Virus record (IMG/VR): IMGVR_UViG_3300032291_000155
Span: 1-21,737 of that record
Direction: 5' to 3' (one strand)
DNA length: 21,737 nt
Source of the DNA: a virus
The stretch's first letter is position 1. Every line of letters begins with the position of its first letter. Positions 11,738 through 21,737 of this stretch are shown piece after piece. The notes under the pieces are model-generated. The model saw only the letters and a list, made by a program, of their open reading frames with translations, ran no database searches and was not told the origin of the DNA. The position numbers and the translations under genes are program-made.

Positions 11738-11797
11738 TTACTTACCCTTTTTGACAGGTGGGCGTTTACCTTTTTTTTCTTGAATTGGGTATGACAT
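11738..11797 (-). CDS. 19-residue lysine-rich peptide gene next to coat gene
   Basis: Frame encodes MSYPIQEKKGKRPPVKKGK. Support for translation is a textbook ribosome site, AGGAG 5 nt before the ATG, in a spacer otherwise free of genes, with a hairpin on each side. The product is basic and proline-containing, like the Lys-rich small proteins encoded at 18906-19842. It could be a real micro-protein or a leader whose translation affects the flanking hairpins. No homology claim is made. Confidence 0.5.
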   Translation of the reverse strand: MSYPIQEKKGKRPPVKKGK

Positions 11798-18905: not shown

Positions 18906-19163
18906 TTATCTCTTTTTCTGTTTTTCGCCAGGTTTATGGCCATTATCACTACGATTAGCTGACACTGAACGTGTCCGTGTGTTACTTAGAGCTCTAGATC
19001 CACCAGAACGTAAAGGTTTCTTGTGATCTACATCAGTAGGTCCTGCACCTTTAGCTCTAGAAGCTTTATTTCGAGCAGCTCTATCTTTTTTAGCTTTGGT
19101 AGAGTCACCAAATAGGTCATACTCTTGTTTATAGTTACGTTTATAGTTAGGACTACTTGGCAT
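18906..19163 (-). CDS. Small basic protein with HNH-like core
   Basis: 85 residues from ATG 19163. A TTG seven codons earlier keeps the frame open, but the ATG matches the MPSSPNYKRNYKQEY start I recognise in this type. A Lys/Arg-rich half (TKAKKDRAARNKASRAKGAG) precedes DVDHKKPLRSGG and ALSNTR, which resembles the central part of HNH endonucleases. The flanking CxxC pairs and the final catalytic His/Asn helix are not evident, so it may be a reduced HNH or a DNA-binding relic. HNH proteins next to terminases take part in packaging cleavage in several phages. It overlaps the upstream gene by 11 nt. Confidence 0.6.
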   Translation of the reverse strand: MPSSPNYKRNYKQEYDLFGDSTKAKKDRAARNKASRAKGAGPTDVDHKKPLRSGGSRALSNTRTRSVSANRSDNGHKPGEKQKKR

Positions 19164-19425
19164 TACCACATTTCCATCTAGCAAGCGCAGCTGCTTTACG
19201 TGTTGGACGTCCTTTAGAGTCTTTCATAGGGCCAGGCATGCCAGACATGCGGGCACAAAAGGACTTTTTACGTGGTCCACCACCTGGTTGAGGTGCTTTT
19301 AAGTTAGAACCTGTAGCAGCATTGTACTTAGCACGGCCTTTAGCCGTAAGTCCAGCACCTTTTGAGACAGGAAGCTTCTCACCACGACCAATAGATAGGC
19401 TTACACCCTTCTTTTTAGTAGCCAT
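19153..19425 (-). CDS. Lys-rich small protein (GLTAKGRAKYN family)
   Basis: 90 residues, strongly basic. MATKKKGVSLSIGRGEKLPV, then KGAGLTAKGRAKYNAATGSN, LKAPQPGGGPRKKSFCARMS and GRPTRKAAALARWKC. This order (GLTAKGRAKYN, LKAPQP, KSFCARM, a final ARWKC) is a conserved small phage protein; I recall a DUF6321-like family, not verified. Two cysteines (in FCARM and WKC) could pair or bind metal. The start is at the stop of the preceding gene in the same run of micro-genes. Role unknown; DNA or RNA binding is possible from charge alone. Confidence 0.65.
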   Translation of the reverse strand: MATKKKGVSLSIGRGEKLPVSKGAGLTAKGRAKYNAATGSNLKAPQPGGGPRKKSFCARMSGMPGPMKDSKGRPTRKAAALARWKCGNAK

Positions 19426-19610
19426 TATTTCTTCATACCCTTAAGTGTTTGAGCTAAACGAGCACGTTGACCCATCTTACCAGGTTTTTTAGCAGCAGCT
19501 GCCAATTTACCTGCAGGGATCTTTTCACCCTTCTTAACTCCTAGAGACTTTTTAAGAGCTCCAGGCTTTTTGATTGCAGAAGCAATCCAGTTTTTAGATT
19601 TAGTAGCCAT
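19425..19610 (-). CDS. Lys-rich small protein (KNWIASAIKKPGAL family)
   Basis: 61 residues, very basic. MATKSKNWIASAIKKPGALK, then KSLGVKKGEKIPAGKLAAAA, KKPGKMGQRARLAQTLKGMK. The segments 'W I..AIKKPGAL.K.LGVKKGEKIP..KL' and 'GQRARLAQTLK' recur in small phage proteins, so this is a real family with no known function. Its start codon lies 5 nt after the preceding stop. Sequence layout suggests a short amphipathic helix, a turn (GVKKGEKIP) and another helix. Confidence 0.7.
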   Translation of the reverse strand: MATKSKNWIASAIKKPGALKKSLGVKKGEKIPAGKLAAAAKKPGKMGQRARLAQTLKGMKK

Positions 19611-19615
19611 GTTTG

Positions 19616-19768
19616 TTATTTCTTCTTTGCAGTTTTAGCACTTTGTTTAAAATCTTTTGCAGTAGGAGCACCTTTAGCCCCTACCTTACGCATCTTCTCT
19701 CCAGAGCCAGCTTTGATCCTTGCTTTTTTAGCATGAATGTTAGCATAGAGTCCTGGTTTAGTAGCCAT
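19616..19768 (-). CDS. Lys-rich small protein (GLYANIHAKKARI family)
   Basis: 50 residues, frame ATG 19768 to TAA 19616. MATKPGLYANIHAKKARIKA, GSGEKMRKVGAKGAPTAKDF and KQSAKTAKKK. The core GLYANIHAKKARIKAGSGEK, then MRKVGAKGAPTA, is a pattern I recognise from small phage-encoded proteins of unknown function. It begins 2 nt after the stop of the 23-residue overlapping gene and ends 5 nt before the next one, consistent with a coupled run of micro-genes. The first four residues MATK are shared with its two downstream neighbours. Confidence 0.7.
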   Translation of the reverse strand: MATKPGLYANIHAKKARIKAGSGEKMRKVGAKGAPTAKDFKQSAKTAKKK

Positions 19769-19770
19769 GA

Positions 19771-19842
19771 TTAGCACTTACCCTTTTTCATTGGCATCTT
19801 TTTCATTGGTTTCTTCATTGGTTTTTTCATTGGTGTTGCCAT
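19771..19842 (-). CDS. 23-residue Met/Lys/Pro-repeat protein overprinted on cupin tail
   Basis: Frame ATG 19842 to TAA 19771, out of frame with and inside the 3' end of the cupin gene. AAGGAG at 19849-19854 lies 6 nt before the ATG, the best ribosome site in this cluster. The product is MATP followed by MKKP, MKKP, MKKM, P and a final MKKGKC, so the 12-nt DNA repeat reads as MKKP here. Its start and Lys-rich content resemble the three following MATK genes. The next gene begins 2 nt after its stop. Translation is inferred from the ribosome site and context. Confidence 0.6.
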   Translation of the reverse strand: MATPMKKPMKKPMKKMPMKKGKC

Positions 19843-20284
19843 TTGGTTCTCCTTGAATTAAAGTACTGTTATCGTAGTTAATACTACCTATATGATCTTT
19901 CCAGTCATTACCCACAAAATCAGGTTCTATACCGTTAAGCCATTTCTGTATGGAAAGAAAACTACCACCTTGTGGTCCAAAGTACCCTCCATGCCATGAG
20001 TTTGTTTTAACTCTAACAGGTTCCCCTGAAGTGTGTAAAACACCATCACAGTAAAAATCTATATCACCAGTTAGATTCACTTCATATGAATCAACATTAG
20101 GATGTATATGTTGTACAATAGTAACGTTAGGTTTAACAATAAACAACTCTACTTGGAATTGTCCTTTCCTATAGAGTACTACACCAGAGAGGTCTCCTTC
20201 TTGTACAATAGCATTTCTAGCAGGAGGGCAAGTAGGTTTATGTTCTAACCACCACTCTAGAAACTCTGTAAGATCATCCTTCAT
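19778..20284 (-). CDS. Cupin-fold protein between the terminase genes
   Basis: 168 residues. The core (about 40-115) reads VELFIVKPNVTIVQHIHPNV, then DSYEVNLTGDIDFYCDG and NSWHGGYFGPQGGSFLSIQK. His59, His61, Glu68 and His98 are in the right order for a cupin metal site, though the spacing of the first motif is not the textbook one. Residues 148-168 are a low-complexity tail of TNEK-type repeats that shares its DNA with another gene. It overlaps the small terminase by 11 nt. Cupin proteins in phage structural operons are recurrent, with roles such as metal- or sugar-binding guessed; the enzyme function cannot be stated. Confidence 0.7.
   Translation of the reverse strand: MKDDLTEFLEWWLEHKPTCPPARNAIVQEGDLSGVVLYRKGQFQVELFIVKPNVTIVQHIHPNVDSYEVNLTGDIDFYCDGVLHTSGEPVRVKTNSWHGGYFGPQGGSFLSIQKWLNGIEPDFVGNDWKDHIGSINYDNSTLIQGEPNGNTNEKTNEETNEKDANEKG
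19784..19834 (-). repeat. Four 12-nt tandem units, dual-coding
   Basis: Units on the plus strand are TTTTTCATTGGC, TTTTTCATTGGT, TTCTTCATTGGT and TTTTTCATTGGT, with 3 extra bases after the first. Spacings are multiples of 3. One frame gives TNEK-like repeats at the cupin C-terminus; another gives MKKP repeats in the overlapping small gene. Confidence 0.85.
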
Positions 20285-20873
20285 TAGGAATCTTAACCTC
20301 AGGTATGACTTCTATTTCTTTAGCGTTAGCAAACTTCTCGAACTGTTTAGCTAAGAGTCTTAGTCTATCGTCTACAGCTACTTGCGTTGTTATGTTAGTT
20401 GGTTCACCCCGTATAAGCTGTCGTCTGTGGACAAGGGTGTTGAATAGGTTGGATAAGACTTTAGTGTCTATAGGTTTGCGGACTAGTTTAGATTTCCTTA
20501 CATCCCAAAGATAATCTCCGTTATCGAGTCGATCGACAATATGAGTAAGAGAGTTATCAAGCACACCGTTAATTCTAGAAGCCAACTTTTCATTTTGTTC
20601 TGTAAAAACCTTCTTCTGTATTTCACTCCACCATGGTTCTTCTTTCCATTGACGGATATGTTTAACTGGTACATTAGTTAACTTACTTACTTCGTCAGCA
20701 TCACCATATACGCAGTATAGGGTGCATGCATCTACTTTAGTCTGTTGAGGAAACCAATCAGGAGCGTGGTGTGAGGCTTTAAGTGGTCTACCCCTTCTAG
20801 GTGTTAAAGAGATTTCTTTCCCTTCATAGTAATATCCACTTGACACTTCTTCACTTTTCTGATCTTCACTCAT
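20274..20873 (-). CDS. terS: Terminase small subunit
   Basis: 199 residues. A Pro/Arg-rich RRGRPLK segment (AT-hook-like) precedes a helix-turn-helix region: QQTKVDACTLYCVYGDADEV, then SKLTNVPVKHIRQWKEEPWW. A helical oligomerisation part follows (SEIQKKVFTEQNEKLASRIN, then a C-terminal LRLLAKQFEKFANAKE). This layout fits small terminases that recognise the packaging site and bring DNA to the large subunit. It is the first gene of the leftward operon. The ATG (20873) has no ribosome site; the promoter placed just before it implies a message starting at the ATG. A GTG at codon 10 is the only nearby alternative. Confidence 0.8.
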   Translation of the reverse strand: MSEDQKSEEVSSGYYYEGKEISLTPRRGRPLKASHHAPDWFPQQTKVDACTLYCVYGDADEVSKLTNVPVKHIRQWKEEPWWSEIQKKVFTEQNEKLASRINGVLDNSLTHIVDRLDNGDYLWDVRKSKLVRKPIDTKVLSNLFNTLVHRRQLIRGEPTNITTQVAVDDRLRLLAKQFEKFANAKEIEVIPEVKIPNEG

Positions 20874-20879
20874 AATAAT

Positions 20880-20908
20880 AGTATATCACAAGTTTTAGTA
20901 TTTGTCAA
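20880..20908 (-). promoter_or_regulatory. Strong sigma70-type promoter for the late operon
   Basis: On the minus strand: -35 TTGACA (20908-20903), 17-nt spacer, -10 TATACT (20885-20880), with TG one base before the -10 (extended -10). The last -10 base is 7 nt from the A of the small terminase ATG, so the predicted first transcribed base is that A. No ribosome site could fit. Confidence 0.8.
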
Positions 20909-20928
20909 GAAGTATATAAGGGCATGTT

Positions 20929-20944
20929 AATATATTTTTATATT
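20929..20944. repeat. Inverted repeat between divergent promoters
   Basis: AATATA-TTTT-TATATT, 6-bp arms, lying between the two -35 elements and overlapping the first two bases of the rightward -35. It could bind a regulator of both promoters; in AT-rich DNA it may also be chance. Confidence 0.35.
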
Positions 20945-20971
20945 GACAAGAATATAATATTGTGTTAAAAT
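20943..20971 (+). promoter_or_regulatory. Strong rightward sigma70-type promoter
   Basis: -35 TTGACA (20943-20948), 17-nt spacer, -10 TAAAAT (20966-20971), with TG one base before the -10 (extended). Predicted start is near 20978. It points away from all genes in the window, into the gene-free structured region. A TATAAT at 20973-20978 lacks a matching -35. Confidence 0.7.
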
Positions 20972-21022
20972 CTATAATTATTAATTAGTAATTATATTAT
21001 TATAATAGTAATATATAATATA

Positions 21023-21047
21023 ATAATACTATAGTATTATAATACTA
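21023..21047. repeat. Two overlapping perfect palindromes
   Basis: 18-bp ATAATACTATAGTATTAT (21023-21040) overlaps 16-bp TAGTATTATAATACTA (21032-21047). The shared half-site TAATACTA / TAGTATTA therefore occurs three times in alternating orientation, like a multi-operator or a cruciform-forming site. Confidence 0.6.
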
Positions 21048-21048
21048 C

Positions 21049-21071
21049 TAATTAGTAATTAGTAATTACTA
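21049..21071. repeat. Tandem TAATTAG heptamers and palindrome
   Basis: TAATTAG, TAATTAG, TAATTAC in tandem, ending in the 12-bp palindrome TAGTAATTACTA (21060-21071). A further TTAATTAGTAATTA lies at 20981-20994, so the heptamers flank the palindromes. Confidence 0.5.
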
Positions 21072-21073
21072 GA

Positions 21074-21211
21074 GGGGGTATCAAACGTAATTGTACGTTA
21101 CACGTAGTACCGAAGGACGAAGTCCGAGGTCGTCTTTCCCGAGGACATAGTTAAGTGTTCCCCCGGTAGGGTGTTCAAGATCGCATTACCCAGTAATGCT
21201 ACTAGACCCTA
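21074..21211 (+). ncRNA. Candidate structured RNA downstream of rightward promoter
   Basis: Pairings seen: GGGGG (21074-21078) with CCCCC (21160-21164), enclosing AACGTA-ATTG-TACGTT (21084-21099) and a hairpin with ACC/GGT, a GAA/GA internal loop and GGAC/GTCC closed by GAA (21109-21130). Next, TAGGGT (21167-21172) pairs with ACCCTA (21206-21211) around a perfect 7-bp hairpin GCATTAC-CCA-GTAATGC (21183-21199). It matches no ribozyme or riboswitch core that I recognise. It lies about 100 nt from the predicted start of the rightward promoter and is less AT-rich than its surroundings. Confidence 0.45.
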
Positions 21212-21350
21212 TTGTAAATATTATTATAAATCTAGAAGAGTGCCCCTCTACTATAATTAAAGAATGCTTATTTCCCTCCCCCCCTAGGCTTAGGGATAAC
21301 CATGCTGCATATCACCAACTATAACTATCAATAACTTACACGATAGTAAT

Positions 21351-21425
21351 CATTGCATTATACATCCCTCTATAACGCACGCTATACTATCTAGAACGCA
21401 CGATGTATTACATCTAATACCAATG
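21351..21425. repeat. Inverted repeat enclosing two AACGCACG direct repeats
   Basis: CATTG (21351-21355) pairs with CAATG (21421-21425) and ATACATC (21360-21366) with GATGTAT (21402-21408). The enclosed segment carries AACGCACG at 21374-21381 and 21395-21402, start to start 21 nt, about two helical turns, as expected for two protein-binding sites on one face. Confidence 0.5.
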
Positions 21426-21451
21426 CTAACCCTCAGTATATTACCAGTGTA

Positions 21452-21506
21452 ATTGTAATACTGTAATCAAGACTACACTATCGTTAGTCTCAATTACGAT
21501 TACAAT
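21452..21506. repeat. Long imperfect hairpin, 20 paired positions
   Basis: Stem from outside in: ATTGTAAT/ATTACAAT (8 bp), a 2-nt bulge, TGTAAT/ATTACG (6 pairs, one G-T), a 2x2 internal loop, AGACTA/TAGTCT (6 bp), 9-nt loop CACTATCGT. Foldable on either strand. Confidence 0.65.
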
Positions 21507-21545
21507 AACTTCCTTGTTGAGTCAATCAATCCTCGGACATATAAC

Positions 21546-21660
21546 TCTAACTAAGTAATCATATAATCCTTATCCCTTTCTTTGTGTCGGACTAAAAGCA
21601 ACCACTGTCCGCCACGGTTTGTTGTATAACTTCTCAGGATTATATAATTCCTAAGTTAGA
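21546..21660. repeat. 25-nt inverted repeat, 22 of 25 matched, 65-nt loop
   Basis: Arm 21546-21570 (begins TCTAACTAAG, ends ATATAATCCT) pairs with arm 21636-21660 with three mismatches. Inside the loop CGGAC (21588-21592) pairs with GTCCG (21607-21611). This is the longest inverted repeat found in the window. Confidence 0.75.
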
Positions 21661-21737
21661 TTAATATCTCAGCGAGGAGTGCCTCCGCACACGTGCTCCG
21701 TTGATTTGACTATATATATAAAAGACCTTGCGCGGTC

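Follow-up and report, generated by a model that had tools for sequence, protein, structure and literature searches.

Long unidirectional overlaps of the "phase 1" type can form when an upstream gene is extended at its 3' end, which Fonseca, Harris and Posada (PMC3887535) find to be the commoner origin; phase 1 overlaps with an ATG start cannot be short. Overprinting (e.g. PMC4683798) is the rise of a de novo gene inside an older one. Spatially or translationally coupled ORFs favor spacings of -4, -1 and -8 nt, and more than 80% of overlapping pairs share <30 bp (review PMC12548453). The overlap described here is of an already known kind, and the micro-protein family encoded in it has no match in Pfam or PHROGs. 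We put at roughly 0.9 the probability that the locus holds a real micro-gene whose frame is constrained and which overlaps the end of whichever gene precedes it.

The window, that is, the whole 21,737-nt stretch of viral DNA analyzed, carries on its minus strand a 23-codon micro-gene (19771..19842; product MATPMKKPMKKPMKKMPMKKGKC, net charge approximately +8.5), recognized by its reading frame, its conservation and the synonymous bias of its changes. Its ATG occupies 19842-19840 and its TAA stop 19773-19771. The gene upstream of it, a 168-aa cupin-fold gene (19778..20284, minus strand), ends at a TAA (19780-19778) inside the micro-gene, giving an overlap of 65 nt (19778..19842, minus strand) in which the micro-gene's ATG falls at cupin codon position 2. 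The coordinates thus bear out the original prediction of a 23-codon out-of-frame ORF inside the 3' end of the cupin gene, with an AAGGAG at 6-nt spacing: this Shine-Dalgarno-like motif (19849..19854, minus strand) is separated from the ATG by AACCAA. The site, presented there as the best of its cluster, is present in the window and in five relatives (L001, L102 and L103-L105) but is not universal, as most relatives carry the weaker AAGGGG at the equivalent spot. A 12-nt tandem repeat (19802..19834, minus strand; 2.8 copies, 95% match) encodes PMKK when read with the micro-gene and TNEK when read with the cupin, confirming the predicted MKKP-type and TNEK-type units in both frames.

Like the overlaps analyzed in PMC3887535, the two genes share a strand, use different frames and place the upstream stop inside the downstream gene, and the overlap is phase 1 by that paper's ATTAA example. 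Unlike in them, the overlap takes up 65 of the downstream gene's 72 nt, almost its full length, and two unrelated upstream genes receive the same tail. The MKKP overlap fits the upstream 3'-extension model, with no need for selection on the overlap itself. The likeness to overprinting is that two frames of one DNA would both be translated; the difference is that here the upstream tail is the derived product and the micro-gene no newcomer inside the cupin. We considered an overprinted de novo gene and rejected it, since the micro-gene exists without a cupin, following a putative terminase small subunit gene (TerS) with none between. As in the coupled ORFs of PMC12548453, the MKKP start is close enough for translation of the upstream gene to reach it; unlike in those, the overlap is 65 nt long.

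The micro-gene was found in at least 19 other IMG/VR contigs, some of them near-identical locally, so that these counts are not independent events. A cupin precedes it in six contigs (the window, L001, L002, L003, L094 and L102), and in these the cupin bears the TNEK tail while TerS is tail-less. In at least 14 contigs (L103-L105, L107-L115, L117 and L125), TerS directly precedes the micro-gene with no cupin between, and most of these have a TerS ending in a TNEK-type tail, for example GETYGNTNEKSTNEETNEKDANEKG in L107. The leader AAGGGGAAAC is common to copies of the L002 type, after a cupin, and of the L107 type, after TerS; the Shine-Dalgarno-like site therefore moves together with the micro-gene. 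The downstream gene also occurs without overlap: in L138 (MATYKKAAPMKKTAKKPMKKGKC), it starts 40 nt past the TerS stop, behind an AAGGGG site. L133 and L136 have similar Lys-rich ORFs that have diverged further but still end in KKPMKKGKC. These lie just past another gene's stop, with no gene-length frame open across them, and ahead of a gene homologous to MATKSKNW of the window.

The micro-proteins of the window and its relatives are 21-48 residues long, rich in lysine, methionine and proline, and end in K(G/A)KC. A tblastn search of INPHARED, for which the 43-aa long form was the query because the 23-mer is of low complexity, returned nothing, a weak absence as the BLAST filter may hide the query. 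Scanning genome contigs for the C-terminal pattern gave a single, chance-like match, CAKPMKKGKC at the end of an ORF in an Alphaproteobacteria MAG (L230), and one further pattern scan yielded no new contigs.

The substitutions among relatives point to the frame that is constrained. Across nine disjoint sequence pairs, the overlap differed at 38 sites, which are small counts, distributed over MKKP codon positions 1, 2 and 3 as 6, 7 and 25 (binomial p=4e-5). In the same pairs, the MKKP frame had 19 synonymous and 9 nonsynonymous changed codons, whereas for the tail frame the numbers were 2 and 29. The third positions of the upstream genes' own frame took 68% of the changes in the non-overlapping cores of these genes, but only 18% of those falling within the overlap (Fisher p=1e-9). 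The original prediction was that the cupin tail is the by-product frame, and that relatives with a broken MKKP frame and a conserved TNEK tail would speak against this. The opposite was found: MKKP proteins are identical where the tails vary in sequence, charge and length. L110 and L112, for example, encode an identical peptide with tails of 25 vs 19 residues, and L103, L104 and L105 all encode MKSKKSPMPMKSKKPMKKGKC, the L103 upstream protein being seven residues longer because TCT is TCC there. Among the 21-25-residue forms, the charge of the peptide runs from +7.5 to +8.5 and that of the tail from -6.2 to +1.8. Together with the exchange of upstream genes, the substitution pattern strongly supports selection maintaining the MKKP frame, with the tail translated along with the upstream gene and not detectably selected.

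A tandem repeat of 12 nt will always give a 4-residue repeat in every frame that is open, and why both frames are open here follows from the amino-acid composition of the micro-gene. Its Met, Lys, Pro, Ala and Thr codons, in their order, leave no room for a stop in the tail frame. The earliest possible stop is at Gly-Lys written GGT-AAR; the window has GGT-AAG there, and the TAA within it ends the tail. When we randomly recoded the window's micro-gene with synonymous codons, the tail stayed open for its full 21 residues in 100% of the recodings and the third frame closed after approximately four residues. The idea that such dual use of a tandem repeat is uncommon is thus not supported, openness being a matter of arithmetic. 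Selection of the repeat for two proteins was rejected, given the outcome of the substitution tests and of the recodings. In the long forms L108 and L114, the tail is open longer than in 98-99% of synonymous recodings, which may reflect weak selection on the tail, or codon usage or bias.

The upstream gene in the window was classified as cupin-fold only, on the basis of its predicted fold and the conserved H59/H61/H98. In the AlphaFold2 model, pLDDT is approximately 90 over most of residues 1-130, with a fold core spanning roughly residues 1-138; the predicted structure has the double-stranded beta-helix of the cupin superfamily, and Foldseek matched it to RmlC-like cupins (E about 1e-6). The protein had no Pfam match at E<=5, and tblastn against INPHARED phage records found nothing. 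The tail produced by the overlap, NGNTNEKTNEETNEKDANEKG, is predicted to be disordered, with pLDDT below 50 across residues 139-168. Among the cupins collected by a profile search, about 30 distant ones lack this micro-gene. Their last residues fall around 140-155, before the overlap region, they adjoin portal-like or other genes, and none has a TNEK tail. The cupin represents a family widespread in phage contigs (L156-L229) and often stands just before a portal-like gene starting MAIDKSLY.

We propose that in an uncultivated tailed phage, within a run of small basic genes, the micro-gene carries its own Shine-Dalgarno-like site behind an upstream gene that has no stop of its own before it. 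Ribosomes translating the upstream gene would therefore read on through the site and the micro-gene to the first stop, one base off the micro-gene's frame, which in the window means the TAA inside GGT-AAG. The outcome would be a hydrophilic TNEK-type tail added to the upstream protein, the cupin here and TerS in cupin-less relatives. Initiation at the micro-gene's ATG, either independent or coupled to the arriving ribosomes, would yield the polycationic peptide ending in K(G/A)KC. Its conservation suggests that the peptide is made, from its own site and perhaps aided by ribosomes from the upstream gene.

Both frames could instead be functional, the TNEK tail being a selected disordered tail of cupin and TerS, a reading that we regard as improbable. 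Translation of the upstream gene has to include the tail, as the sole stop of that gene is inside the micro-gene; the tails are always hydrophilic and mostly acidic, and those of L108 and L114 exceed the expected length. However, of 31 changed codons in the tail, 29 are nonsynonymous. The tail also moves from one protein to another, unrelated one, is absent from the roughly 30 cupin homologues and is predicted to be disordered, and in the window its openness needs no selection. It is very improbable that the micro-gene serves as a portable tag for C-termini, the shared hydrophilic, mostly acidic disordered tail having gained a role on the cupin and TerS, for example by holding the basic peptide from the same DNA beside the upstream protein. 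Conservation of the segment as a nucleic acid, an RNA or DNA element such as a leader or packaging signal, would suit its place beside the terminase genes and the leader common to cupin and TerS contexts, but this has hardly any probability: RNA folding gave no stable structure for the segment (z = +0.8 and +0.2), its changes concentrate at MKKP third positions and are mostly silent for the amino acid, and its length varies by whole codons.

The window sequence by itself is only mildly suggestive of a real micro-gene. When the cupin is randomly recoded with synonymous codons, 90% of the recodings have an ATG ORF out of frame that reaches 20 aa or more, and 9% do when an AGGAG at 4-9 nt is added to the definition. 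What places the micro-gene beyond chance is its conservation in the other contigs and its substitution pattern. The former figure is what a chance MKKP ORF in A-rich DNA, with the cupin frame alone real, has in its favor, and that reading is refuted by the cross-contig conservation, the third-position bias, the non-overlapping copies and the exchange of upstream genes.

With the preferred reading of a constrained micro-gene, the locus becomes a clean natural experiment on gene overlap, in which two unrelated proteins get the same tail from one downstream gene, and in which tails can differ in length although the micro-proteins are identical. It illustrates how a tail on a protein can be read-through debris, and advises caution before shared tails are taken as functional. 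It also provides evidence for a phage micro-protein family whose 21-25-aa forms gene callers could miss. As to its role, the micro-protein is possibly, though this is a tentative guess drawn from composition (charge) and gene position only, a small polycation binding to DNA or to partner proteins in packaging or head assembly. A comparable gene is gp26 of Pelagibacter phage HTVC142P (L149), a 34-aa Lys-rich ORF directly before the MAKRGLYANIHAKRKRIK (YANIHAK) gene; unlike the MKKP gene, it lies between scaffolding and capsid genes and not in an overlap, and no alignable similarity is claimed. By analogy, its position is suggestive of an assembly role, not of homology.

The surroundings of the micro-gene agree with its proposed membership of a Lys-rich cluster, for which the relatives, the substitution pattern, the tail-less cupins and the stand-alone copies all argue. 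In the window, a putative TerS-like gene (20274..20873, minus strand; weakly matched by a PHROG for terminase small subunit, E=0.011) stands a few genes before that of the large terminase, TerL, and small basic genes (MKKP, YANIHAK, KNW and DUF6321) follow one another between the two. All three ORFs after the micro-gene, on the same minus strand, start with MATK. The next gene, beginning MATKPGLYANIHAKK (MATKPGLY...; 19616..19768; phrog_16028), has its ATG 2 nt past the micro-gene's stop and is followed by one beginning MATKSKNWIASAIKKPGALKK (19425..19610) and by a DUF6321 gene beginning MATKKKGVSLSIGRGEK (19153..19425; Pfam PF19846, E=7e-23). These genes are modular in relatives such as L002, L107 and L110, where YANIHAK, a GQWSARKAQLVAKKYK gene (phrog_17747), KNW and DUF6321 come and go.

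Several further observations concern the same region. TerS or cupin homologues without the MKKP gene (L097-L101, L106, L116 and L118-L122) often have their ends within another small gene, in most cases a Lys-rich one, at the same frame offset and with tails of very different length and sequence; in general, it seems to be the next gene that determines their C-termini. Small basic proteins encoded after TerS, 21-66 aa in length (L098-L101, L108, L114 and the window) share a C-terminal K(G/A)KC with its final cysteine, the remainder differing. Upstream of the TerS-like gene, approximately 860 bases of the window (20880-21737) are AT-rich, with short AT repeats and without a long ORF. Elsewhere in the window, near capsid-type genes, a 19-codon Lys-rich ORF on the minus strand (11738-11797; MSYPIQEKKGKRPPVKKGK), with TATTAGGAGTTTAT ahead of its ATG, is a candidate micro-gene.
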